Positions 1 to 63,825 of a DNA stretch of 64,000 nt are shown piece after piece. The stretch comes from Streptobacillus notomytis. Lineage in GTDB: Bacteria; Fusobacteriota; Fusobacteriia; Fusobacteriales; Leptotrichiaceae. Positions within the stretch are counted from its first letter, which is position 1; each line of letters opens with the position of its first letter. Below the pieces are notes generated by a model. That model was not told the origin of the DNA and did no database searches. It was given only the letters and a program-made list of their open reading frames with translations. Where the stretch lies: the NCBI GenBank assembly GCA_001612575.1, contig LJRV01000308.1, positions 1 through 64,000 of the forward strand, written 5' to 3'. The translations under genes were made by a program, and so were the position numbers.

Positions 1-352
1 ATTTTTCATAAAATGCTTCATGATTAACTGTAGACATAAGACCAATATATGCACCTTTACAAGCATTTTTAGATATATACTCTAGTGCAGAATTAAGTAA
101 TAATCTACCATATCCTTTATTCCTATGTTCAGGTAATATCATTAAATCTTTTATGAAAAAAACAATTTTATTATCACCTACTATTCTAATCATTCCAATA
201 ACTTCTTCTTCAATTAATAAGACAGCATCAAACAAATGATTTTTAATAGCTGTAATGACATCCTTCTTTTTATATTCTTTAAATCCACATTTTTCATGTA
301 GATTCAAATAATCTTCTGCATTTAATGCATTAAATTTAATAATTTCTTTCAT
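1..352 (-). CDS. GNAT-family N-acetyltransferase, C-terminus cut by window edge
   Basis: Reading the minus strand from the ATG at 350-352 gives about 117 uninterrupted codons running off the left edge. The protein starts MKEIIKFNALNAEDYLNLHE and contains the acetyl-CoA binding core of GNAT enzymes: a hydrophobic strand, then LMILPEHRNKGYGRLLL, which matches the family R/Q-x-x-G-x-G/A motif (here RNKGYG). GNAT enzymes transfer an acetyl group from acetyl-CoA to an amine, but the substrate cannot be told from sequence. A GGAGGT ribosome site lies at 366-371. The gene is divergent from the LacI-type regulator at 479 and shares its intergenic region, so it may be that regulator's target (inference). 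Confidence 0.85.
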   Translation of the reverse strand, partial: MKEIIKFNALNAEDYLNLHEKCGFKEYKKKDVITAIKNHLFDAVLLIEEEVIGMIRIVGDNKIVFFIKDLMILPEHRNKGYGRLLLNSALEYISKNACKGAYIGLMSTVNHEAFYEK

Positions 353-381
353 GATAAAGCGTTTTACCTCCAATCAAATTG

Positions 382-409
382 AGTATACCACAATTTTTAT
401 CAAAGTCAA
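382..409 (-). promoter_or_regulatory. Promoter for the GNAT gene (minus strand)
   Basis: On the minus strand TTGACT (404-409) is followed by a 16-base spacer and TATACT (382-387). The -35 box is one arm of a palindrome whose other arm is the -35 box of the divergent regulator promoter. The predicted transcript would begin very close to the GGAGGT ribosome site, leaving a very short leader. Confidence 0.55.
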
Positions 410-421
410 GTGTTTGACTTT
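402..421. promoter_or_regulatory. Perfect palindrome spanning both divergent -35 boxes
   Basis: Bases 402-421 form a perfect inverted repeat with 8-base arms (AAAGTCAA and TTGACTTT) and a 4-base centre (GTGT). The arms contain back-to-back TTGACT boxes for the two divergent genes. A dimeric repressor such as the adjacent LacI-type protein could bind here and shut both promoters. The symmetry may instead be only the consequence of two -35 boxes facing each other. Confidence 0.45.
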
Positions 422-442
422 TTATATTAAAAAGAATATAAT
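414..442 (+). promoter_or_regulatory. Sigma70-type promoter of the LacI-type regulator
   Basis: TTGACT (414-419), a 17-base spacer and TATAAT (437-442). A CGGAGG ribosome site follows at 466-471, seven bases before the TTG start at 479. Confidence 0.75.
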
Positions 443-478
443 TTAAAAGATTATAATTCGCATTTCGGAGGTTATATT

Positions 479-1459
479 TTGATAAAAATCAAACTAAAAG
501 ATATAGCAGAATTAGCTTCTGTTTCAGAAACAACAGTGTCACTTGTACTAAATAATAAAAAAACACGTATTTCAAAAAAAAAACAAGAACAAATTAAAAA
601 AATTGCAAATGAATTAAATTATCAACCAAATATAATAGCACGTTCTTTAGCACAAAGAAAAACTTTTACGATAGGATTAATTATACCTGATATTAATAAT
701 CCTTTTTTTTCTTCTCTATCTAAATATATAGAAGAAATTCTATACAAAGAAAGTTATCTTTTACTTATTGCAAATAGCAATAACTCTACAGAACATGAGA
801 AATTATTAATTCAATCATATATCAATCATCAAGTAGATGGTATTCTTTTATGTCCTTCTAATGAAATGCTAGATAATTATGATTATGAAAAATATTTAGA
901 AAATTTACCTGTTCCCATTATAATAATCGATAGAATTATGAAAAATTCAAATATTACTCAAATTTCTTATGATAATAAAATAGGTGGATATTTAGCTACT
1001 GAATATTTAATAAAAAAAGGTTGTAAAAATATAGCTGGTGTTACTGGTACATTTACATCTCAAAGTTCTAAAGATAGATTAATTGGATATAAAAAAGCAT
1101 TAGAGGAAAATAATTTGAATGATTCATTAATATTTAAAGGGGATTTTACTTTTGAATCAGGAATTAATTTAGCTCCTAGTATTTTAAAATCTTCACCTGA
1201 TGGAATTTTTTTCTTTAATGATATGATGGCATATGGTTTTTTTTATTATTTAAAAAAATACAATATACCTGAAAATAAATTTTTAATATGTGGATATGAT
1301 AACTTAAAACTTTCAGAGATATTTCATTTGACATCAATTGAACAAAATACAGAGACTTTATCAAAAAAATGTTGCAAATCAATTTTAAATATAATTAACA
1401 AAAAGAAAATTAAGAAAAAAGAAATTATAAAACCAAAACTTATATTAAGAAATAAATAA
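479..1459 (+). CDS. LacI/GalR-family transcriptional regulator
   Basis: A 326-residue DNA-binding regulator. Residues about 5-27 are the LacI helix-turn-helix (LKDIAELASVSETTVSLVLN), followed by the hinge (YQPNIIARSLAQRK). Residues about 60-320 form the periplasmic-binding-protein-like effector domain, with the family landmark IGLIIPDINNPFF. The start is TTG at 479, chosen because CGGAGG lies seven bases upstream and the helix-turn-helix begins immediately. Members of this family usually bind a sugar or nucleoside effector; none can be named here because no transport or catabolic gene is adjacent. Its promoter overlaps a palindrome, so autoregulation and control of the divergent acetyltransferase gene are plausible. 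Family assignment is firm, function is not. Confidence 0.93.
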   Translation: MIKIKLKDIAELASVSETTVSLVLNNKKTRISKKKQEQIKKIANELNYQPNIIARSLAQRKTFTIGLIIPDINNPFFSSLSKYIEEILYKESYLLLIANSNNSTEHEKLLIQSYINHQVDGILLCPSNEMLDNYDYEKYLENLPVPIIIIDRIMKNSNITQISYDNKIGGYLATEYLIKKGCKNIAGVTGTFTSQSSKDRLIGYKKALEENNLNDSLIFKGDFTFESGINLAPSILKSSPDGIFFFNDMMAYGFFYYLKKYNIPENKFLICGYDNLKLSEIFHLTSIEQNTETLSKKCCKSILNIINKKKIKKKEIIKPKLILRNK

Positions 1460-1488
1460 AAGAAGATAAAATATATTTTATCTTCTTT
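1459..1488. terminator. Bidirectional terminator between convergent genes
   Basis: A perfect 30-base palindrome (AAAGAAGATAAAATA and its complement) sits between the regulator stop and the convergent ogt stop. It is flanked by A- and T-rich sequence on both sides and can end transcription in both directions. Confidence 0.7.
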
Positions 1489-1495
1489 ATTAATT

Positions 1496-1987
1496 TTAAA
1501 TATTTTTTTCAAGCTCTAATAATTTAATTTTTCTATCAATACCTCCAGCATACCCTGTCAATGAACCATCACTTCCAACAACCCTATGACATGGAATTAA
1601 AATTGAAATAGGATTATTAGCTACAGCTCCACCAACAGCTCTTGCAGAACAACGTTTTTTCTTGCTCATCATTTCTGATATTTCTTTATAACTAATTGTA
1701 TGTCCATAAGGAACTAACAGTAAAATATCAATAACCTTTTTTCTAAAATCTGTAACTTCTGGACCTAAAATTGATAAATCCAATTGTGGATTTTTACCTA
1801 AAAAATAATCTTCTATCCATTTTTTAACATTTATTATCAACTTATTATCTCCTACCTCAACATCATCAAGATTATAATGTGATCCTAGATATTTTTGATC
1901 ATCAAACCACACTCCCCTAACATATTCCTCGTCTGCTAAAACAATTAAATTCCCAATAGGTGTATCAACATAATTTTTTAATAACAT
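1496..1987 (-). CDS. ogt: Methylated-DNA--protein-cysteine S-methyltransferase
   Basis: A 163-residue suicide DNA repair protein that removes methyl groups from O6-methylguanine by transferring them to its own cysteine. The active-site motif IPCHRV is present with Cys at about residue 133. Upstream are the winged-helix recognition region (VPYGHTISYKEIS) and the arginine-finger stretch (ARAVGGAVANNP). I place the start at the ATG 1985-1987, which has AAAGGA six bases upstream and begins MLLKNYVDTPIGN as in relatives. A longer frame would start with a TTG at 2053, but that codon lies in the -35 box. Cytoplasmic, monocistronic, convergent with the LacI-type gene. Confidence 0.93.
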   Translation of the reverse strand: MLLKNYVDTPIGNLIVLADEEYVRGVWFDDQKYLGSHYNLDDVEVGDNKLIINVKKWIEDYFLGKNPQLDLSILGPEVTDFRKKVIDILLLVPYGHTISYKEISEMMSKKKRCSARAVGGAVANNPISILIPCHRVVGSDGSLTGYAGGIDRKIKLLELEKNI

Positions 1988-2024
1988 TAATATCCTTTCT
2001 TTGTATTTTATGACTCCCAAAAGG

Positions 2025-2053
2025 AGTATATCTATAAACTGTGTTTTCATCAA
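2025..2053 (-). promoter_or_regulatory. Promoter of ogt
   Basis: On the minus strand TTGATG (2048-2053), 17 bases, TATACT (2025-2030). The short inverted repeat ACTCC-GGAGT (2013-2027) overlaps the start region of the transcript. This promoter supports the downstream start at 1987. Confidence 0.6.
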
Positions 2054-2370
2054 CTAATTTAATCAGATTAACTTCTAAATGATGCCTTATATTTATAATT
2101 AATATCAAAAAAATATACCTTCATATAACACGTTCTTATTCTTTTATTATCATTTTTATTATTCTAAGTCCATACATTTTTTATATTATATCATTTTAAA
2201 ATAATTTTTCCTATTCTAAAATTGATATGTTAATATATAAATAATGTAAAGACAGCAAGAAGATATCATAAACTATTACATACTACCAAATTCAATAAAT
2301 ATTTTCCACAATAAAAAGAATACCCTCATGCAAGAATATTCTTCATAAAAAATACCACAAATAAATTTTA
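2054..2370. other. 317-base intergenic stretch with one terminator
   Basis: AT-rich and without open frames of convincing length. Apart from the hairpin at 2316-2343 I see nothing in it. Confidence 0.6.
2316..2343 (-). terminator. Possible terminator after the small membrane gene
   Basis: Inverted repeat AAGAATA / TATTCTT with a 14-base loop. On the minus strand it is followed by a T-rich run (TTTTTATT). Confidence 0.4.
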
Positions 2371-2670
2371 TTATCTCATTAAAAATTCATGAACAGCATC
2401 TAATGTAACCAAATATGATAAAACAGAAAGCATCATTATCAAAAATCCAAGGAAATGAATTGATTCAAATTGTTTTGTTCTATAAATGAATATACGAACT
2501 AATTCTACTGGATTTTTCTTTTTTCTATCAATATAAACACTTATTACACGCAATAGTAATATGTAAGATATCATTTGTTGAATTACTCCTATAAATATAC
2601 CTAAAATTTTATATACCGATATAAAAAATTTTTCTGTTTCAACTATTGATGAACTCATTGTTATTGACAT
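2371..2670 (-). CDS. Small membrane protein of unknown function
   Basis: About 99 residues, starting MSITMSSSIVETEKFF. Two hydrophobic segments (about residues 15-42, YKILGIFIGVIQQMISYILL, and 72-92, FLGFLIMMLSVLSYLVTLDA) with a positively charged connector (YIDRKKKNP) suggest two membrane passes. I prefer the ATG at 2668-2670, preceded by GAGG, over an upstream TTG at 2685 that abuts the previous stop and has no ribosome site. No family recognised. It lies directly downstream of another membrane protein gene and of the damaged IetS-like protease, and may be co-transcribed with them. Confidence 0.6.
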   Translation of the reverse strand: MSITMSSSIVETEKFFISVYKILGIFIGVIQQMISYILLLRVISVYIDRKKKNPVELVRIFIYRTKQFESIHFLGFLIMMLSVLSYLVTLDAVHEFLMR

Positions 2671-2685
2671 TTCCTCAATATTCAA

Positions 2686-3138
2686 TCAATAATACAATGT
2701 TAATATAGAAACAATAGCTGAAACAACAATAAATTTAACAGTAATTTCTTGAACTTTTTTGTTAAAATATATAAAAATACAAAATATAATGGATACTATT
2801 ATCGGTATAATCCCAAACCACTTTAAAAATAAAGATATGTACTTGGAATATTCTTTGAAAAACCCAACAATTATAAATTCAATAATTATTCCTAGAATAA
2901 TTATTCCCGAAATATGATCTTTATTCAAACTATTACTATTACCCAGAGATTTATTTTTTATTTTTAAATTATAATTATAACAAGGAGATTCAATAAAAAA
3001 AGATTCAGTGAATGTTTTTTTATTTTTCTTATATTCATCAATAATTAAATTAATAAAATTTAATATTGATTCTTTAATAATTTCACCAAGTATTATTTTA
3101 AATAATCTTATTAGATATTCTATAATTGTATCAAGCAT
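2686..3138 (-). CDS. Membrane protein of unknown function
   Basis: About 150 residues beginning MLDTIIEYLIRLFKIILGEI. An amphipathic N-terminal stretch is followed by a polar, Asn/Lys-rich middle and three hydrophobic segments near the C-terminus (GIIILGIIIEFIIVGFF; ISLFLKWFGIIPIIVSIIFC; FIVVSAIVSILTLYY). The start at 3138 is chosen because GGAGG lies three bases upstream; a TTG at 3180 would add 14 residues without a ribosome site. The stop is directly followed by the next gene. No homologue recognised. Position after the IetAS-like pair suggests it belongs to the same acquired patch (inference). Confidence 0.6.
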   Translation of the reverse strand: MLDTIIEYLIRLFKIILGEIIKESILNFINLIIDEYKKNKKTFTESFFIESPCYNYNLKIKNKSLGNSNSLNKDHISGIIILGIIIEFIIVGFFKEYSKYISLFLKWFGIIPIIVSIIFCIFIYFNKKVQEITVKFIVVSAIVSILTLYY

Positions 3139-3210
3139 AATCCTCCAATTTTTACTAATTTTATTTTTTTCATTATTCAAGTAATATTTTTCTATTTTTA
3201 TTTTACAATT

Positions 3211-5446
3211 CTATTCAAATTCAATTTTTTCATTCATTTTTTGGTAAATATCAATTCTATTATTAATATCAATTTCATTTACTAGCCACCCTCTTAAATT
3301 ACAATTTTTGATAAACTCATCAATCTTATTTTCACCATCCATTTCTTTAAGAGTTACTACCACACCAAATCTAATCCCTACACCATCTTTCGGATCCAAA
3401 CGATTATTAGTTTTTACTTCCATACCCCAGTTCTTATTTAAATAAGAAGATTTTGGCCTAAATCTTTTTATAGATCTCTCTGCAATATATTTTACACTAT
3501 CCCATTTTCTAAACTTATCTCTGGCATCTTTTTCCAATATATAAATTTTTTCTCTACCTAATGTATAATCTATATTTTGTTTATCACCTTTAATATCCTT
3601 AATTTTACCATCATCTCATATTATACCAAATTGTAAATTCAATTCGGTATTTGTATAATCAACTCCTTGTAATCTGTCACATAATGGGAAATAACACATA
3701 GTAGCTTTTGCAATATATGAATACTTATCATTCTTTAAAGGAATAGGGAAATTATAATTATAAGTGTTCCACTTTTCACTGATATCAGATACAATAAATT
3801 TAATTTCATCGTCTTTAGTTTTAATAATATCATTAATATGAATTGGTACAATACCATGACCATATAATGCAACTTCTTCAAAAGTTTGTTTTTCTTTCCA
3901 ACCTCTAGCAGCATCAATAATCATAGCTTTTGCAACTTCTCTATTTAATCCTAAAACATCAATTAAATAAGATAACTTTCTTGCAATCCAAGGAGCGGCA
4001 TAAGAAGTTCCAGCGACTCTCGCAGATCCTAAAGGTTCACAGACTATAATATATTGTTCTTCACTTCCTCCATAATAACTTACATCAGGTTTTGCAAAAA
4101 AAGACAATACCACTCCCTCACGAGCATATTTTGGTGACAATCCTCTTTTCGTTACTGAATTCACAACAATACTATTAATAGAATCGGCAGGAGAACCTAT
4201 TTTTATAATATCTTCACTTTGTTTATTAGTTCCTGACACAACAAATATCACATTATTTTCAAACTGAATTTGATCTAAGATTGCAGCTTCAGGCAGAAAT
4301 AAAATTATCGTTTATTTTCTGATTGCTACCAAGTGAAATATTCCATACTTTTATATCTAAGTTACTTACTATAATACTCTTTATCTGTTTTATTATAGAA
4401 AAAGATGAAAATTCAGCACCAACAGCTACTCCAAAATGTCTAACTCGAAATCTTCCACAACAATCATCCAACCAAGGATTCAATTTAGCTCCATCTACAA
4501 TAATTGAAGATACCGCCGTCCCATGTCTATAATCATTTGAATTTTTAGGTATATCATCTGATACCATATCATGATATTCAACCCATTCACTAAAATATAC
4601 ATTTTTATCAAATAGAGTATCTATAACTCCTATAGTAGGTTCAATAGTCGAAGATGGTATAGATAATATATTTGTTTGATAATCATTTATAAAATAATCA
4701 TGTGATAATCATGATAAATCAACTGTTGCCATTGATACAAGATAAGGTACTTTTTCCAAAAGCAATTCTAATTGATTTTTGTCTAAGTAAACGGTTTGAT
4801 TATCTAAAATTCTAGTGTTTAAAATATCTATTCCCAAGTCTTCAAACAGTAACCTTGTATCTTTCTTTACATCATAAAGAGTTATAATACTCTGTTTAAG
4901 CTCAATTGTAGGTTTCTCTACTTGAAATGAATCTATATAAGAAGCATCTGCAATCACTTGTTTAAATTTAGACATACTTATATCTGAATCTTTAAACACA
5001 GTTGAATTAAGAATTTTTTTATCTTCAAATATTTTTTTGTTTATTCTATCAGAAAATTTTTTAGATAATATATCTGATACATTTGAAAGTAATTCTATAC
5101 TTTTATTCAAATCATTTTCATCGATAAAATATGTTATTATATGTCTATTTTTATCTTTACTAAACTTGGCTCCTACAACTGAATTATTGGAAGCATTACC
5201 TTTAAAAAGTCCAGAAATACGATTACTTTTTGAAACTATTTTATTGTAATAAACACTAATTAAAATACCTTTAAATGGTTTGTCTTCTTTTTCCCAAAAG
5301 TCTTTGATTTGATTTAGCTGAAATTTTAATCTTAATAAATGGCTTGTAAGAACTTCTACTTCACCATTCATAGATACTCCACCACGTATACCATTTTTAT
5401 TGACTTGTATAAAACGTTTACCTTTTAACTCTAACACATTATTCAT
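3211..5446 (-). pseudogene. ietS: Subtilisin-like (S8) serine protease, IetS-like, interrupted three times
   Basis: The full coding length is about 745 codons from ATG 5444-5446 to the stop at 3211, but it is broken. An in-frame TGA lies at 4709-4711, an extra base near 4294 shifts the frame, and a second in-frame TGA lies at 3616-3618. Joining the pieces gives a coherent S8 protease: N-terminal region (about 245 residues), catalytic Asp in TIGVIDTLF, His in RHGTAVSSI, oxyanion Asn region VVSGTN, catalytic Ser in GTSYAAPW, then a C-terminal domain. An AAA ATPase gene lies seven bases upstream, matching the two-gene IetAS anti-phage system (known family). Nine other tryptophans are encoded by TGG, so TGA is not read as Trp here. 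Either recently inactivated or mis-sequenced. Confidence 0.8.
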
Positions 5447-31619: not shown

Positions 31620-32414
31620 TTAAAAACCTACTTCTACTTCTCCATTGTATTTTTCCATTATAAATTGTCTTACTTTATCAGTTTGTAAAACTTTAATTAA
31701 TTTTTGTATTTTTTCATCATTTTCTTTACCTTTTAATACTGTAATTATATTTACATAAGGAGAATCCTTACCTTCAACTATTACAGCTTTATCTCCTGTA
31801 ATTCCTGAAGCTAAAGCATTATTTGTATTAATAATAGCTAAAGTAACTTCAGATAATCTAGGTGCAATTTGCTCTGAATTTAAACTTGTAATTACTAATT
31901 TTTTAGAATTCTCTACAATATCAGAAATATTTGCATCTAATTTTTCTCTACTATTTAATTTAATTAAACCTGAAGCATCTAATAATAATAGTGCTCTTCC
32001 TCTATTCGTTGGATCATTAGGAATTAAAATTTCTGATCCTTCATTTATTTCATTTATATTCTTAACTACATTTGAATATGCTTTTAAAGGTTCTAAATGT
32101 ATAGCACCTGCACTAACCATTTCTATATTATTTTCTTTACCAAATGTTTCCATATATGGTATATGTTGGAAATAGTTTGCATCTATACTTCCATCTTTTA
32201 ATGATATGTTGGGTTGAACATAATCATTAAATACAACTATTTCAAGTTCTATACCTTCAGCTTTTAAATCATCTTTAATAAATTCTGCTATTTCTTGATG
32301 CGGTATTGGAGAAACTCCTAAAATTAATTTTTTACTATTTTCATCAGAAGATTTTCCTCCAACACATGATAATACAATAAAAGTTAAAAATACTAATATT
32401 ATTTTTTTAAACAT
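31620..32414 (-). CDS. metQ: Methionine ABC transporter substrate-binding lipoprotein MetQ
   Basis: 264 residues. Lipoprotein signal FKKIILVFLTFIVLSC with lipobox Val-Leu-Ser-Cys. The NlpA/MetQ domain shows LGVSPIPHQEIAEFI, VFNDYVQPN, DANYFQHIPYM and IPNDPTNRGRALLLL. It binds D/L-methionine and delivers it to MetNI. The start is ATG 32412-32414, preceded by GAGGAAGG, rather than the in-frame codon at 32438 inside metI. Third gene of metNIQ and under the Met-rich leader described at 34137-34184. Confidence 0.94.
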   Translation of the reverse strand: MFKKIILVFLTFIVLSCVGGKSSDENSKKLILGVSPIPHQEIAEFIKDDLKAEGIELEIVVFNDYVQPNISLKDGSIDANYFQHIPYMETFGKENNIEMVSAGAIHLEPLKAYSNVVKNINEINEGSEILIPNDPTNRGRALLLLDASGLIKLNSREKLDANISDIVENSKKLVITSLNSEQIAPRLSEVTLAIINTNNALASGITGDKAVIVEGKDSPYVNIITVLKGKENDEKIQKLIKVLQTDKVRQFIMEKYNGEVEVGF

Positions 32415-32415
32415 A

Positions 32416-33060
32416 TTACCTTCCTCTTTTCTTTTCAATAAATTTTACTATTCTAGTTCCTATAAATTGTATTATTTGAACTATAACTATCAATATAAAC
32501 GTTGATAAATACATTAATTTATAATTACCTCTTTGAAAGCCTTCTATAACAGCTAAGTTACCTAATCCTCCACCACCAATTATACCTGCAATAGCAGAAA
32601 AACTTACAAGTGAAATTAAAGTTAAAGTTAATCCATTAATTATTGAAGGTATTGCTTCAGGTATTAACACCTTAAATACTATATCTTTATTAGTAGCTCC
32701 CATTGAAATAGCAGCTTCTATCAATCCATAACTAACTTCATTTAATGAATTTTCTATAATTCTGGCTACAAATGGTGCTGTTCCTATTGATAAAGGAATA
32801 ATAAATGCCGTTGTACCATATGATTTACCAACTATTAATCTTGATAAAGGAATCAAAAGAACTATCAAAATTACAAATGGTATTGATCTAGTTATATTAA
32901 CTATTATTAAATCAAGAATCTTATTTAAAGTTCTATTCTCTGAAATAGATCCCTCTCTTGTAATTGACAATAATATACCTAATGGCAATCCAATGATGTT
33001 TGCTATACTTATTGAAATAAATATCATATATATTGTTTCTAATATGGCTTTAATAATCAT
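32416..33060 (-). CDS. metI: Methionine ABC transporter permease MetI
   Basis: 214 residues with five hydrophobic segments and the ABC permease EAA loop (GLIEAAISMGATNKDIVFKVLIPEA). The segment SRLIVGKSYGTTAFIIPLSIG is typical of MetI. It forms the membrane channel with MetN as the motor. Its ATG overlaps the metN stop by four bases, indicating translational coupling. The order N-I-Q matches other bacteria. Confidence 0.94.
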   Translation of the reverse strand: MIIKAILETIYMIFISISIANIIGLPLGILLSITREGSISENRTLNKILDLIIVNITRSIPFVILIVLLIPLSRLIVGKSYGTTAFIIPLSIGTAPFVARIIENSLNEVSYGLIEAAISMGATNKDIVFKVLIPEAIPSIINGLTLTLISLVSFSAIAGIIGGGGLGNLAVIEGFQRGNYKLMYLSTFILIVIVQIIQFIGTRIVKFIEKKRGR

Positions 33061-34034
33061 TTTAACACCTCTACTCTAATTCCAACATTTTCCAACCAAT
33101 TTATTATTTCTTCTATATTATTTGTTTCTATACTTATGTTTAAATGCCCTATTTTTACTCCACTTGCTAATGTATCAATGGAACCACTAAGTATATTAAT
33201 ATCCAAATTAAATTCTCTAGTAAGTTCTGAAACATAAGGTTTATCAACTTGATCTCCATCAAAAATCAAATTAAGTGTATTAGCTCTTCCTTTTTGAACT
33301 TCTATTTTTAAATCACTTATTAATTCTCTTGAAAAATCAGTCTTAGGGTTAATAAATAATTCCTTTACTGTAGAGACCTCTATTAATTTACCATTTTTCA
33401 TAACAGCTACTCTATCACATATTTTCTTAATAACTTCCATTTGATGTGTTATTAATATAATAGTTATTCCTAATTTACTATTTATATCTTTTAATAATTC
33501 TAATATTGAATTAGATGTTATTGGATCTAAACTTGAAGTAGATTCATCTGATAATAATATATCGGGATTAGTAGATATAGCTCTTGCAATAGCTACCCTT
33601 TGTTTTTGTCCTCCACTTAAATTATTTACATATTCATCTTTAAAATTTTCTAATCCAACCAACACAAGTAATTCATTTACCTTTTTATCAATTTCACTTT
33701 TTGAAAATTTTGATATTTCTAAAGGTAAAGAAACATTTTCAAATACAGTCCTTGATGATAATAAATTAAAATTTTGAAATATCATAGATGTTTTTTTTCT
33801 ATATTCCCTGGTTTCTAAATCATTAAATTTAAAAATATCTTTATTTTCATGATAAATAGTTCCTTTAGTTGGACTATCTAACTTATTTATCATTCTAATT
33901 AAAGTTGATTTTCCAGCACCAGATAAACCAATTATTCCAAATATTTCTCCCTTTGATATCTCTAAACTAACATCATCAACAGCTATTTTTTCATTGAATT
34001 TTTTGGTTAAATTCTTTATTGTTAGGTATGACAT
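33057..34034 (-). CDS. metN: Methionine ABC transporter ATP-binding protein MetN
   Basis: 325 residues. Walker A GLSGAGKST, Q-loop IFQNFNLL, signature NLSGGQKQR and Walker B ILLSDEST followed by H-loop ITHQ. The C-terminal ~80 residues are the NIL (ACT-like) domain that binds methionine and inhibits transport when the cytoplasm is replete, so uptake is feedback-controlled at the protein level too. Start has AGGAGG seven bases upstream. First gene of metNIQ; transcription reaches it only through the attenuator at 34044-34077. Confidence 0.95.
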   Translation of the reverse strand: MSYLTIKNLTKKFNEKIAVDDVSLEISKGEIFGIIGLSGAGKSTLIRMINKLDSPTKGTIYHENKDIFKFNDLETREYRKKTSMIFQNFNLLSSRTVFENVSLPLEISKFSKSEIDKKVNELLVLVGLENFKDEYVNNLSGGQKQRVAIARAISTNPDILLSDESTSSLDPITSNSILELLKDINSKLGITIILITHQMEVIKKICDRVAVMKNGKLIEVSTVKELFINPKTDFSRELISDLKIEVQKGRANTLNLIFDGDQVDKPYVSELTREFNLDINILSGSIDTLASGVKIGHLNISIETNNIEEIINWLENVGIRVEVLK

Positions 34035-34043
34035 TATTCCTCC

Positions 34044-34098
34044 TTAAAATAAAAAGTCAGGCTTTAGTGCCTGACTTAACTAGTTACATTCAAGGCAC
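34044..34098 (-). promoter_or_regulatory. metNIQ attenuator: terminator and mutually exclusive antiterminator
   Basis: Terminator on the minus strand: AAGTCAGGC (34069-34077) pairs with GCCTGACTT (34054-34062), loop six bases, followed by TTTTTATTTT. Antiterminator: GTGCCT (34093-34098) can pair with AGGCAC (34067-34072), which is part of the terminator 5' arm and loop. Between them AATGTAACTA (34081-34090) is complementary over ten bases to the leader-peptide segment at 34162-34171. No S-box, SMK-box or T-box signature was seen in this leader. Confidence 0.7.
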
Positions 34099-34108
34099 AA
34101 ACACAAAC

Positions 34109-34132
34109 AGCTTGTACCCAAAAATACAAGCT
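34109..34132 (-). promoter_or_regulatory. Pause-type hairpin after the met leader peptide
   Basis: AGCTTGTA (34125-34132 on the minus strand) pairs with TACAAGCT (34109-34116) across an eight-base loop, starting five bases after the leader stop codon. In amino-acid attenuators a hairpin here holds the polymerase until the ribosome catches up. Confidence 0.5.
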
Positions 34133-34136
34133 TTTA

Positions 34137-34184
34137 TTACATGTGCATCATATTCATTTTAAATGTAACTACTTTATTTATCAT
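34137..34184 (-). CDS. Met-rich leader peptide of metNIQ
   Basis: A 15-codon frame, MINKVVTFKMNMMHM then TAA, with five Met codons; four of the last six residues are Met. GGAGG lies seven bases before its ATG, so it should be translated. It lies between the predicted promoter (34214-34242) and the metN terminator hairpin. This is the architecture of ribosome-mediated attenuation, as in trp, his and leu operons of Proteobacteria, but with methionine as the sensed amino acid. Bases 34162-34171, encoding codons 5-8, are the exact ten-base complement of 34081-34090 just before the terminator. Confidence 0.7.
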   Translation of the reverse strand: MINKVVTFKMNMMHM

Positions 34185-34213
34185 ATTTTTTCCTCCAAAA
34201 TTATTACAAAGTA

Positions 34214-34242
34214 ATAGTATCATATATTTATATAAATTACAA
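34214..34242 (-). promoter_or_regulatory. Promoter of the metNIQ leader
   Basis: On the minus strand TTGTAA (34237-34242), 17-base spacer, TACTAT (34214-34219). Expected start near 34207, about ten bases before the leader peptide ribosome site. Confidence 0.6.
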
Positions 34243-34280: not shown

Positions 34281-34883
34281 TTAATCTTTACTAATTATTC
34301 TAATAATATTATTTACAATATCAAAACCATACCTAACATTTACAACTGCTCTATTTTCCTTTTCTTCATTAACAATATCAACATTAAAATCATATATACT
34401 ATTTTCTAGAACATATGAGATATATTCTCCATTATCATTTAATGTTATATCATTATTAAGTATAATTTTTAATTTTAATTCATCTTCAACCTTAGAAGAG
34501 TTAAGAGGGCAGCCTTTATCACATATTAATTTATTTTGTAAATTTACTAAAATATCTGAATGAATAATAATACTTTTATAATTATCCATTTTTTTTACAG
34601 CTTTCGTTATTTCTACTTTATTTAAAGTATTAGTTATAAACGTGTTTGATTTAGAAAAATCATCATTATTAAATATCTCAAAAATTTTTTTAAATTGAAT
34701 ATCATAAAAAAATTTCTTCATTTTAAACTTAAGCTTTGCTAATTGCTTTAATTTTGTTTTATCATATTTTAATATATCCTCAAAAACTACTTCTTCATTT
34801 AATATTAAATTTTCATTCTTAGAATAAAATTCATTATACATAACCTCGTATATATCTTCTTTTTTTATAATTTTATTAATCAT
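34281..34883 (-). CDS. Conserved-looking cytoplasmic protein of unknown function
   Basis: 200 residues, no signal peptide and no membrane segment. The N-terminal half is lysine-rich and helical (YDKTKLKQLAKLKFKMKKFF). The second half is beta-rich (DELKLKIILNNDITLNDNGEYISYVLEN) with a Cys-containing turn (ICDKGCPLNSS). AAGGAA lies before the ATG. It sits between the secA terminator and the met leader, so it may be transcribed by read-through from secA or from its own unseen promoter. I do not recognise the family. Confidence 0.65.
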   Translation of the reverse strand: MINKIIKKEDIYEVMYNEFYSKNENLILNEEVVFEDILKYDKTKLKQLAKLKFKMKKFFYDIQFKKIFEIFNNDDFSKSNTFITNTLNKVEITKAVKKMDNYKSIIIHSDILVNLQNKLICDKGCPLNSSKVEDELKLKIILNNDITLNDNGEYISYVLENSIYDFNVDIVNEEKENRAVVNVRYGFDIVNNIIRIISKD

Positions 34884-59404: not shown

Positions 59405-61231
59405 TTATCTTAATGCAATCTCTACTCTTCTATTTAAATATCTTCCTGTTGAATTCTTATTTGTTTCCACAATATTACTATATCCTGATGAACTTACCTT
59501 TCTTATAGATATACTTCCATCTAATCCTAATTCTCTTAATTTTTCAGCAACTTTATTTGCTCTCCTTAACCCCAATTCAAGATTGAAATTTTCATTTGAT
59601 ACATTATCTGTATACCCTGTTATATATATTTTTCTGTTCTTAAAATTAATGTTTAATTCTTTCACAATATTCCTAAGTATATCTATTTGTGAACTTGTTA
59701 ATTCTGATGCTCCCATCTTATATCCATTTAATGTATATAGATCATCTTCATTTACTTTAATGCTTTCATAATTTTTTAATTTTTCTCTAAATCTTTCAAG
59801 CTCTTGACATATGTTGCCATTTTGTTTATCTAATTTATCATTTAAAGCATTCAATCTTTCTAAATAAATATTAATAGTTGTATCTTTTTCTTTTGAATCA
59901 TTATCATAACCTCCAAATTGATAACTTATTCCTGCTCCTAATGCTAAATATCCTTTTGTATTAAGTGATCCACTTGCTCTATACACTATATTATCATTTG
60001 TTCCAGAAAATCCTAAAGCAAAAGCATTCTCTCCATTATAGTAAGCATATGATCCTGAAAGATTATGTCCTTTATTATTTACTTGTAATAAATTTGCCAT
60101 TGCTATTGCATTTGCTATTCCACTATTTGCTGCAACTCCTTTTTCTATATCTTTTTTAATTTTATCTGATAAATCTACATTAACTTCATTTCCATTTGCT
60201 TTTGTTATAATATGATCAGAACCCTTAATTTTAAAATTCAGTCCACTATTTTTATTTAACATTTGTTTTTCTGTAGTTCCACTATCTCCATCAAATGATA
60301 AGGTATTTGTAGATAATTTCTCTAATTTTTCACTCGTTTCTTTATTTTTATCAAAATTCTCTTTTATTGAATCATGTATAGTATTCTTACTAGTTCCACC
60401 AATATTTGACATAGTTATTTTACCATTTATATCCAAATTTGCATTAGAACCAAAAATATCTTTAACTGAACTTGCAAAATATCCAAAAATCTTATTTGTT
60501 GAATAAAGTTGTGAACCATTTATTGCATCAGTAGATGTGCTACTTATTTGTCCTGCTGCAACATTCTGTAGTTGTCTTTCCTTATCTTTATCTCCTATAG
60601 ATACTACTGAAACAGGATTATTTCCTGCAAATCCATTATATTTTATATTTTCTATTGTAACTTCATTTGTTTTTACTGCATTTGTTGTCTTACTATTAGA
60701 TCCTATAGCTACTGATTTTTCTGAATTGGCCTCTGCTTGATCACCTATTGCTATTGAATATTCTCCTTTAGTTTTAGCTTCATTTCCTAGTACTATTGAA
60801 AAGGCTTTTCCAGCTTTTGAATTACTTCCTATTGATATTGAAGTCCCTCCTTCAGCTTGTGCTTTATATCCTTGTGCTATTGCATAATTTGCTCCAGATT
60901 TTGCTCCATATCCATGTGATATTGAAGCGTATCCATCAGCTTGCGCTTCATACCCTTGTGTTACTGCAGCATATCCTTCACTTGAACTTTTATTTCCAAT
61001 TGCTATTGAGTATTCTCCACCATGTTCTGTTTTAGAACCCACACTAATACTATTTTTATTTTGATCTCCTATTCCATAATATATTGGTTTTATTTCATAA
61101 TTCATACCATTTCGTTTTTTTAATCCTTCTGGCATTAAATCTGTAGTTTGTCTATTTGCAAAAATATTTTCTATTGTCAAAAATGTAATAAATAATAATA
61201 GTATGTTAAATAATGATTTATTTTTTTTCAT
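59405..61231 (-). CDS. Trimeric autotransporter-type adhesin with C-terminal OmpA domain
   Basis: 608 residues. Signal peptide (KSLFNILLLFITFLTIENIFA). Residues about 55-185 are repeating YadA-head motifs (AIGNKSSSEGYA, AISHGYGAKSG-like, SIAIGDQAEANSE). The neck motif is STSTDAINGSQLYSTN. Residues about 365-440 look like the four-strand YadA anchor (GIANAIAMANLLQV, then NGENAFALGFSG, GYLALGAGISYQFGG). Unusually, a coiled coil (IYLERLNALNDKLDKQNG) and an OmpA-type peptidoglycan-binding domain (ITGYTDNVSNENFNLELGLR, RYLNRRVEI) follow, with the Asp and Arg used to bind diaminopimelate. The trimer would display heads outside and hold peptidoglycan inside. Terminator follows. Confidence 0.85.
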   Translation of the reverse strand: MKKNKSLFNILLLFITFLTIENIFANRQTTDLMPEGLKKRNGMNYEIKPIYYGIGDQNKNSISVGSKTEHGGEYSIAIGNKSSSEGYAAVTQGYEAQADGYASISHGYGAKSGANYAIAQGYKAQAEGGTSISIGSNSKAGKAFSIVLGNEAKTKGEYSIAIGDQAEANSEKSVAIGSNSKTTNAVKTNEVTIENIKYNGFAGNNPVSVVSIGDKDKERQLQNVAAGQISSTSTDAINGSQLYSTNKIFGYFASSVKDIFGSNANLDINGKITMSNIGGTSKNTIHDSIKENFDKNKETSEKLEKLSTNTLSFDGDSGTTEKQMLNKNSGLNFKIKGSDHIITKANGNEVNVDLSDKIKKDIEKGVAANSGIANAIAMANLLQVNNKGHNLSGSYAYYNGENAFALGFSGTNDNIVYRASGSLNTKGYLALGAGISYQFGGYDNDSKEKDTTINIYLERLNALNDKLDKQNGNICQELERFREKLKNYESIKVNEDDLYTLNGYKMGASELTSSQIDILRNIVKELNINFKNRKIYITGYTDNVSNENFNLELGLRRANKVAEKLRELGLDGSISIRKVSSSGYSNIVETNKNSTGRYLNRRVEIALR

Positions 61232-61311: not shown

Positions 61312-62043
61312 TTATTTCAATATTCTCGATAAAAATTCTTTTGTTCTTTCGTTTTTAGGATTAGTAAATATCTCATCTGGATGTCCTTCTTCAAGAATAA
61401 TTCCACTATCCATAAAAATTATTTTATCAGAGACTTCTCTTGCAAAATCCATTTCATGTGTTACTATTATCATAGTTAAACCTTCATCTGCCAGTTCTTT
61501 TATAACTTTTAAAACCTCTCCAACCATTTCAGGATCTAACGCAGATGTTGGTTCATCAAATAATAATAATTCTGGATTTACAGAAAGTGCCCTTGCTATT
61601 GCAACTCTTTGTTTTTGTCCACCAGATAATTGATTTGGTCTGGCATTAATAAATTTGGACATTCCAACTTTTTCTAAATATTTTATAGCGTTATTTCTTG
61701 CTTCTTCTCTTGTTCTACCTAAAACACTTATTTGTGCTAACATACAGTTTTCAAGTACATTTAAATTATTAAATAAATTAAACTGTTGAAACACCATCCC
61801 AACCTTACTTCTATATTTATTAAGTGATATTTTCTTATCCTTAATATCAATATCTTTATATGTAACATTACCGTCATCATATGTTTCAAGTAAATTTAAA
61901 CATCTTAATAAAGTGGATTTTCCTGATCCCGAAGAACCTATAATTGAAATAACTTCACCAACATTTACTTCAAAATTTATTCCATTTAATATATTTCTTT
62001 TACCATAACTCTTTTTTAAATTCATAACTTTAATTATACTCAT
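61312..62043 (-). CDS. Amino-acid ABC transporter ATP-binding protein
   Basis: 243 residues of the polar-amino-acid (GlnQ/HisP) family. Walker [13 protein letters not shown]-loop [11 protein letters not shown], signature [13 protein letters not shown], Walker [18 protein letters not shown]-loop VTHEMDF. It powers the fused binding-protein/permease encoded two bases upstream. Lysine is the likely substrate because the operon leader holds a lysine riboswitch. Confidence 0.94.
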
Positions 62044-62045
62044 AT

Positions 62046-63578
62046 TTATCCCTCAATTTCATATTCTTTATTTCCATCCATTTTCTTTTCTAAGTATCTA
62101 AATAATTTAGATAATGAATAAGTTAATACAAAATATATAGCACAAGTAATAACAAAAACTTCATAATATCTTACATGTGAACCTACTATAGATTTTGAAG
62201 TAGTAAATAATTCTGTAACACCTATAGAAAATAGTACAGAAGTATCTTTTATATTAATAATAAATTCATTTGCAACGGATGGCATTACATTTCTAATGGA
62301 TTGAGGAAGTATAACTTTTCTCATAATATTAAAATGATTCATCCCCAATGCCTGTGCTGCCTCATATTGACCTTTTTCAATTGAGTCTATTCCACCTCTA
62401 ATAATTTCAGTAATATATGCTCCAGTATTATATGAAACTATTATTAAAGCTGATGTTAGTGCTGGAATATTTATTCCAGTTATTTGTGAAAATCCATAAT
62501 AGAATATTATTGCTTGAACTATCATAGGAGTTCCACGAATAAATGTTACATATATTGATACAAAATATTTAAATATATTGTATGTAAATATTGATAACCA
62601 CGAGTTTTTATTAACATTTCTTTCATCTCTTAATAAAGATAATATTAATCCGATAATAAATCCAAAAAAAGTTCCTATTAAAGATAAATTAATTGTAGTT
62701 AATGTTCCTTGTAAAAAATCTTTCCAATAATTAACAATAAAATATTTTATCCAACCAAAGAAATTAACAGGTAATACATCTGAACTTTGATTAGGTTGTG
62801 TTTCTATTGCTCTTTTCATTATTTCTTCTCTTTGTTCAATAGAAATTTCAGATAATATACTATTAATTTTATTTCTAAGTTCAATATTACCTTTTTTTAA
62901 TGCTATAGCAACATTTACATCATCTCTATCATATTTAAACCCATTATCTTTAGAAAACTCAACAAAGGATATATTAGGATTGGATATTTTAGCTGATAAA
63001 GCTCCTGGTTTTTCAGAAATATATCCATCTATTTTACCTGATACTAATGCAACAAGCATATTAGAAAAGTTTTCACTTGCATTTTCTTTTTTTAATCCCA
63101 TTATTTGATCTAATACAGTATAATGAAACGTATTTAACTGTGCTGTTAATTTACTATTAGAAAATTCTTGTATATTCTTAGCAGCTAAATATTTAGAATC
63201 ATTTTTTACAACTATTACTAAATCTGATTCATAATAAGGATTTGTAAATTCTAAATTTTCTTTTCTTTTTTTAGTGGGTGACATTCCTGCAATTACGACA
63301 TCGATTTTATCTGAATTTAATGCTGGTCCTAATAATGAATCCCAATCACTTTGTACTATTTCTAGTTCCATATCAAGTTTTTCTGCAATAATTTTTGCTA
63401 TTTCTACATCATAGCCACCAACATAACCATTTCTCAATTTTACTGCACCATTTCTATCATCACTTTGAAACCAATTAAAAGGTGCATATCCTGCTTCCAT
63501 TCCTACCCTTAGCTTATCCATACCTAAAGAAAAAACAGATAATATTAGCAATACGAATAATACAATTTTTCTTTTCAT
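62046..63578 (-). CDS. Fused amino-acid-binding protein and ABC permease, probable lysine uptake
   Basis: 510 residues. A signal peptide ([20 protein letters not shown]) precedes a type-3 substrate-binding domain (about 22-262) with [34 protein letters not shown] and [10 protein letters not shown]. Then comes a HisM-type permease (about 280-500) with the EAA loop [21 protein letters not shown]. Fusion of binding protein and permease is known in some Firmicutes and Fusobacteria. The lysine riboswitch in its leader points to lysine or a related cation as substrate. Start ATG at 63576-63578, with AGAAAGGA upstream. Confidence 0.92.
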
Positions 63579-63622: not shown

Positions 63623-63646
63623 AAGTATAAAAAAATAACTATACTT

Positions 63647-63816
63647 AACCAATAGCTCAACATTATATTTTATAATGACAGTATTATAAATGTTATTTAT
63701 AATCCCACCTATGTAGTTGTCAAATACATAAGTTCGGCAATTTCCCCTTTCAAATTTAATCATCACATTGACTAGTTCATAAATTTTACTGTTGAATTTT
63801 GCACCTCTATCTCGTT
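63647..63816 (-). ncRNA. Lysine riboswitch (L box)
   Basis: On the minus strand the core elements of the L box occur in order: GATAGAGGTGC (63801-63811), AGTAA (63786-63790), AAAGGGGAAATTGCCGAA around 63733-63750, AGGTGGGAT near 63703-63711, CTGTCA (63676-63681), then GAGCTATTGGTT closing P1 with AACGAGATAG (63807-63816). Spacing matches the Bacillus lysC L box. Lysine binding would stabilise P1, take CTATTGGTT away from the antiterminator, and let the terminator at 63603-63622 form. So uptake is shut when lysine is plentiful. Confidence 0.9.
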
Positions 63817-63825
63817 ATTTGGTAT

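Follow-up and report, generated by a model that had tools for sequence, protein, structure and literature searches.

A candidate ribosome-mediated methionine attenuator before metNIQ in Streptobacillus notomytis and related Leptotrichiaceae

The leader of the metNIQ operon of Streptobacillus notomytis very probably works as a ribosome-mediated transcription attenuator that responds to how much charged Met-tRNA is available, a reading that we draw from sequence comparison and modeled RNA folding. The window, i.e., the whole stretch of DNA analyzed here, comprises 64,000 nt (assembly GCA_001612575.1, contig LJRV01000308.1, positions 1 to 64,000); its source is a 1.73-Mb draft genome (G000), which was compared with three congener genomes and with relatives in the same family, Leptotrichiaceae, such as Oceanivirga miroungae (G015, hereafter Oceanivirga). 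An earlier note on this DNA had proposed a methionine attenuator of this type, and the proposal is supported by conservation of the leader, by compensatory change in a predicted helix between leader codons and a downstream segment (A:E), and by folds computed with a ribosome at successive positions. We infer that the leader ORF would be translated, that ribosomes would stall on it when charged Met-tRNA is scarce, and that transcriptional read-through would follow.

Organization of the leader and operon

The genes metN, metI, and metQ form one operon on the minus strand (Table 1). Their top NCBIfam matches carry the names MetN, MetI, and MetQ, all under curated cutoffs: metN best matches TIGR02314 (ABC_MetN) under its equivalog cutoff, and metI scores 205.8 against PRK10782, for which the cutoff is 212. 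The codon identity of the leader fits the operon, a Met cluster standing before genes for a NIL-domain MetN and a MetQ. The putative promoter is a weak one, as each hexamer matches the consensus at only 4 of 6 bases and falls under the scan threshold; the same site reads TTGTAA-N17/18-TAATAT/TATTAT in the congeners, TTGACA-N17-TATAAT in G006, and TTGCAA-N17-TATAAT in G007. Directly upstream of the leader, a 200-amino-acid ORF (34281-34883, minus strand) has no Pfam or NCBIfam match.

Table 1. Predicted features of the metNIQ leader and operon, in window positions. C5 and C3 are the arms of hairpin C, D and F the arms of the antiterminator, and G the 3' arm of the terminator.
Feature	Position	Strand	Description
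Putative promoter	34214..34242	minus	TTGTAA (34242-34237), 17-nt spacer, TACTAT (34219-34214); read from sequence
Shine-Dalgarno GGAGG of leader ORF	34192..34196	minus	Read from sequence
Leader ORF, 15 codons	34137..34184	minus	MINKVVTFKMNMMHM, then stop; Met codons 10, 12, 13, and 15
Segment A, leader codons 5-9	34159..34171	minus	13-bp pairing with E
Segment B, end of Met-codon run and stop	34135..34146	minus	GCACAUGUAAUA; pairs with D in minimum-energy and ensemble folds
Hairpin C, right after stop	34109..34132	minus	AGCUUGUA...UACAAGCU
C3, 3' arm of hairpin C	34119-34109	minus	GGUACAAGC; alternative partner of D
Segment D, antiterminator 5' arm	34093..34105	minus	UGUGUUUGUGCCU; three rival partners (B, C3, F)
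Segment E, adjoining D	34081..34093	minus	UUGAAUGUAACUA; partner of leader codons in A
Antiterminator hairpin D:F	34067..34098	minus	GUGCCU...AGGCAC
Intrinsic terminator F:G with U-run	34046..34077	minus	9-bp stem (34077-34054), just before GGAGG of metN
metN	33057..34034	minus	Met ABC transporter ATPase with NIL domain; PF00005, PF09383
metI	32416..33060	minus	Permease; PF00528; best NCBIfam match MetI PRK10782
metQ	31620..32438	minus	Substrate-binding NlpA-type lipoprotein; PF03180 (1.9e-79); MetQ/NlpA family matches

The elements listed in the earlier note, namely, the ORF with its GGAGG, four Met codons, a hairpin after the stop, a terminator with a T-run, and a GTGCCT/AGGCAC antiterminator overlapping that terminator, are all present on the minus strand at the sites in Table 1. 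Met accounts for four of the last six codons of the ORF (34157-34155, 34151-34149, 34148-34146, and 34142-34140). The 10-base complement that had been noticed between leader codons and a downstream segment (34162-34171 with 34081-34090) is exact and extends to a 13-bp helix, A:E (34171-34159 with 34093-34081); in the window sequence alone, its duplex energy is -15.6 kcal/mol, whereas shuffles average -5.8 kcal/mol (P = 0.0005). Since E adjoins D, A:E and the antiterminator D:F are mutually exclusive. The leader as a whole (208 nt) folds with a z score of -4.4, none of 200 shuffles being equally stable, and a consensus scan of the region found three terminator-like sites against 0.0 expected in shuffles. 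Hairpin C may possibly serve as a pause hairpin for RNA polymerase.

Two other loci in the window drew our attention. A lysine riboswitch (RF00168, 98.6 bits; 63645-63817, minus strand) precedes two genes that together probably constitute a lysine importer: an ORF in which substrate-binding and permease parts are fused (62046-63578) and a second one encoding an ABC ATPase (61312-62043). By eye, a 608-amino-acid ORF (59405-61231, minus strand) has YadA-like head repeats (SIAIGxxS) and an apparently OmpA-like C terminus and is probably a surface protein.

Conservation and covariation among relatives

We sought metN homologues in 33 Leptotrichiaceae genomes and inspected the regions upstream of the returned loci. 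Ten leaders sharing a common core immediately precede metN; they come from nine genomes in four genera (G000, its three congeners, G009, Oceanivirga, G006, G007, and G016), and in all of them the Met codons, the complementary segments, and the stems first described in the window recur. The proposal thus withstands the comparison that the earlier note had set as its own test, since these relatives keep both the Met codons and the complements. One genome, G003, has two such leaders, the second of which (contig C322) precedes another metN-metI-metQ set. This second operon (G003:C322:1-8000, positions 201-3924) is followed by an M20-type amidohydrolase-like ORF and may import a methionine derivative. 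The inspection of relatives also found an eleventh, divergent leader in a fifth genus (G017; loci L028 and L065), with the peptide MKRFREAMCMS, an unrelated core, and the same A:E logic; it may be a convergent or an older version and could respond to Met/Cys.

A Shine-Dalgarno sequence, an ATG-initiated ORF of 11 to 16 codons, and an in-frame Met cluster near the ORF end are found in all 11 leaders; each core leader has three or four internal Met codons, and G017 has two. The clusters read MNMMHM, MMHMY, MMHM, MMMDM, MMMYM, MMMHM, MMMHT, and MCM, and the remaining peptide is unrelated. Most of the AUGAUG of the cluster lies outside the B:D helix, and the codons themselves are therefore what is kept. 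The relatives likewise have a terminator between the ORF and metN, seen both in their sequences and on folding, and the GUGCC of D is invariant in all core leaders. A covariance model built from the ten core leaders recovers exactly these ten (E of 7e-14 or better) and, across 98 Fusobacteriota genomes, finds nothing credible elsewhere, such that within these genomes the model places the element only before metN. Weak matches in Fusobacteriaceae (E of 5e-4 to 0.006) were rejected as lying in unrelated places, including a tRNA neighborhood and, in one case, a leader before an apparent isoleucyl-tRNA synthetase gene. In the leader-bearing genomes examined, metK (which follows a recR-like sequence) and metE have no such leader.

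The strongest of the comparative evidence is the A:E helix, whose pairing is predicted in 11 of 11 leaders even though A and E differ between genera: A/E reads UAGUUACAUUUAA/UUGAAUGUAACUA in the window, AAAUUUGC/GCAAAUUU in Oceanivirga, UUUACAACUA/UAGUUGUAAA in G006, and AAAAGAUUUAG/CUAAAUCUUUU in G017. Shuffle P values for single leaders range from 0 to 0.03. Because a hand alignment would be circular, we replaced a formal count of covarying A:E pairs with a permutation test, in which the pairing of each A with its own E across eight lineages (total of -104.9 kcal/mol) was the best of 40,320 permutations (mean of -44.3). The MAFFT alignment of the leaders misplaced A segments between genera and was excluded from the covariation analysis. 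The core helices B:D, C, and F:G hardly vary and so contribute little covariation. B:D is paired in 93% of cells across the ten core leaders without any double change, and in F:G, two base pairs differ on both strands among the relatives with the helix intact. The near-invariance of the core arms is explained by each arm having two or three partners. C3:D was proposed independently by RNAalifold on a MAFFT alignment of the core (which missed C5:C3, two rows being shifted), and B:D and A:E were proposed by minimum-energy folds. D:F is mutually exclusive with F:G, C3:D, B:D, and A:E, and these helices are conserved. In energy, the antiterminator region is comparable to the terminator region, their stabilities being about equal in most relatives.

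Strong sequence conservation of the block GGUACAAGCUa..UUUGCGUGUGCC might instead be taken to indicate a ligand-binding riboswitch, with a SAM or Met aptamer and an ORF that is incidental to conserved sequence, particularly as SAM riboswitches precede metN in a sister family and metK in other genera of Leptotrichiaceae. However, the window has no match to a SAM family at the gathering score and no match to any Rfam family at the leader, relaxed thresholds return only chance-level hits, and the conservation of the block is accounted for by the part that every arm plays in two or three alternative helices. An aptamer would also leave the in-frame Met codons, the Shine-Dalgarno sequence, and the ribosome-dependent switch unexplained, and A:E covaries inside the ORF. 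We therefore consider an aptamer very unlikely.

The distribution of the known SAM riboswitch nevertheless bears on the history of the leader. A whole-genome search for RF00162 found none in the nine core-leader genomes, while the family is present once in 22 of 24 other Leptotrichiaceae genomes (Fisher P = 1.4e-6); the nine genomes may be one clade, and the association thus counts as few independent events. In Leptotrichiaceae, these riboswitches lie before metK in the two loci inspected and, by position, in others; in Fusobacteriaceae, a SAM riboswitch precedes metN itself. G017 carries both the divergent leader and a SAM riboswitch. Searches of the genus of the window, which has metK, turned up neither methionine synthase (MetE or MetH); G009, G007, and G016 do have MetE. 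Leader-bearing Leptotrichiaceae are host associated and have small genomes. Altogether, this pattern suggests that charged Met-tRNA replaced SAM as the sensed signal while the cells grew dependent on imported methionine.

The conserved Met cluster could also be read at the level of the peptide. In TnaC, the nascent peptide arrests its own ribosome in response to tryptophan, and an MM(H/D/Y)M peptide might similarly stall the ribosome on free methionine or SAM, in which case the leader would encode a Met-sensing arrest peptide and not a codon-starvation attenuator. Although the M-M-x-M motif is kept in most leaders, the other residues, residue x itself, and the distance to the stop all vary: the last Met is followed directly by the stop or by Y, YT, CR, or CLSL, G003b ends in MMMHT, and in G017 the motif is reduced to MCMS. 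The simpler common factor is codon identity, and we give peptide arrest very little credence.

Predicted switch and the effect of ribosome position

Under the attenuation model, ample methionine would allow the ribosome to pass through the Met codons. With the ribosome at the stop codon, C3 would be freed and would trap D (C3:D); after release, or without any ribosome, the leader and its Met codons would trap E and D (A:E and B:D). In all of these states, the terminator F:G would form and transcription would end short of metN. Under methionine shortage, the ribosome would stall on a Met codon and cover both A and B, hairpin C would close on itself, the antiterminator D:F would form, and polymerase would read into metNIQ. 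The part of the earlier model in which a stalled ribosome releases the antiterminator is supported by the folds described below, and we extend that model, which was incomplete, with two predicted interactions. In the first, the Met codons themselves tie up D as well, GCACA pairing with UGUGC (B:D). In the second, C3 (GGUACAAGC) can pair with the D arm (GCGUGUGCC), giving a stop-codon state of the trp/his type.

We placed a ribosome on one codon after another and folded the RNA truncated just past F, masking either the footprint only or everything upstream; such folds describe equilibrium on partial transcripts, not kinetics. Across ribosome edges from +11 to +17, the stop state was clear from about +13. 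The antiterminator is missing from the free leader (probability of 0.00 to 0.02 in all 11 leaders) and strong with the A-site on most Met codons (usually 0.6 to 1.0). Values are weaker at some Met codons of G002 and at the first Met of G006, and at the last Met codon, they are often low when upstream RNA may pair. With the ribosome on the stop codon and only its footprint masked, the antiterminator probability is 0.00 in 10 of 11 leaders, G009 being the exception; when all upstream RNA is masked (edge of +14), it drops to 0.1 or less in seven leaders, takes an intermediate value of 0.48 in G006, and remains high in G001, G003b, and G009. Shuffling A and B together raises the ribosome-free antiterminator to 0.49 to 0.98, and shuffling C3 raises the stop-state antiterminator to 0.56 to 1.00.

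A constitutive terminator behind a short, nonregulatory ORF, with no methionine regulation at all, would be hard to reconcile with conservation across genera through compensatory change, with three alternative partners for D, and with a switch that depends on ribosome position; we regard it as exceedingly unlikely. A point that counts against the attenuator model itself is that its control codon is also the start codon of the leader, and methionine starvation should therefore slow initiation on the very ORF needed for induction, favoring termination.

Relation to known methionine control systems

Classical attenuators of the trp, his, leu, ilv, thr, and phe operons combine an ORF that has a Shine-Dalgarno sequence with clustered cognate codons and alternating helices. 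The metNIQ leader resembles the trp and his attenuators in that a stall is predicted to give the antiterminator, and a ribosome at the stop codon, or none, the terminator. It differs from the classical systems in that Met is both its control codon and its start codon, that it would control an importer in place of a biosynthetic operon, that it matches no Rfam leader family, and that it is found in Fusobacteriota. The SAM riboswitch RF00162 occupies the same regulatory niche, but there SAM is sensed by an aptamer.

In Lactobacillales, a Met-specific T-box senses Met-tRNA charging and controls methionine uptake (PMC7058034); the T-box binds the tRNA directly and without translation, whereas the metNIQ leader relies on predicted translation of its ORF. 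Even though methionine transport operons of lactic acid bacteria are under T-box control (PMC7058034), a T-box-like leader that binds uncharged tRNA-Met is almost certainly not the explanation here, as the window has no match to the T-box family (RF00230), no leader-bearing genome has one even at an E value of 0.001, and the 140 nt from ORF start to terminator end are already filled by the ORF and the attenuator arms.

Leader peptides with Met codons have been proposed before. In Campylobacter jejuni, MetL precedes metBA, and stalling with antitermination was suggested (PMC3847290); MetL also gave a signal in translation-initiation profiling, and CJsORF19 (MMYQMR) precedes a D-methionine transport binding-protein gene (PMC11955535). 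As far as the excerpts of these two reports extend, MetL and CJsORF19 share with the metNIQ leader a short ORF of Met codons, yet the phyla differ, MetL precedes biosynthetic genes and not an importer operon, and it is presented without an antiterminator model or covariation, with orthologues in only three Campylobacter species. In Streptomyces lividans, a Met-containing leader peptide, metL, precedes metNIQ (PMC8079986). Unlike the Streptobacillus leader, it is 29 amino acids long with a leaderless start and two internal Met codons, and it lacks a typical Rho-independent terminator, its termination being reported as unclear (PMC8079986). A survey of premature terminators recorded leader peptides in Firmicutes, Proteobacteria, and Actinobacteria and does not mention Fusobacteria in its main text (PMC2965389). 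The principle of a Met leader peptide has thus already been proposed; relative to the open-licence literature, what is new is the lineage (a new phylum for Met specificity), the complete predicted switch, and evolutionary support that is stronger than for earlier Met leader proposals. Those attenuators were suggested from single transcriptomes, whereas a family of ten to eleven sequences is available here, and we found no earlier Met leader-peptide attenuator with a conserved, covarying switch in that literature.

Leader peptides of another specificity may also occur in this family. In two genomes of another Leptotrichiaceae genus, g9 (G011, L077:1423-1494; G018, L075), an ORF with three consecutive His codons (MTLISLNNNSINKIKAHHHIGRV, then stop) is followed by a terminator and precedes a histidyl-tRNA-synthetase-like (hisZ-type) gene and a hisG-like gene, an arrangement that is likely a classical his attenuator in Fusobacteriota.
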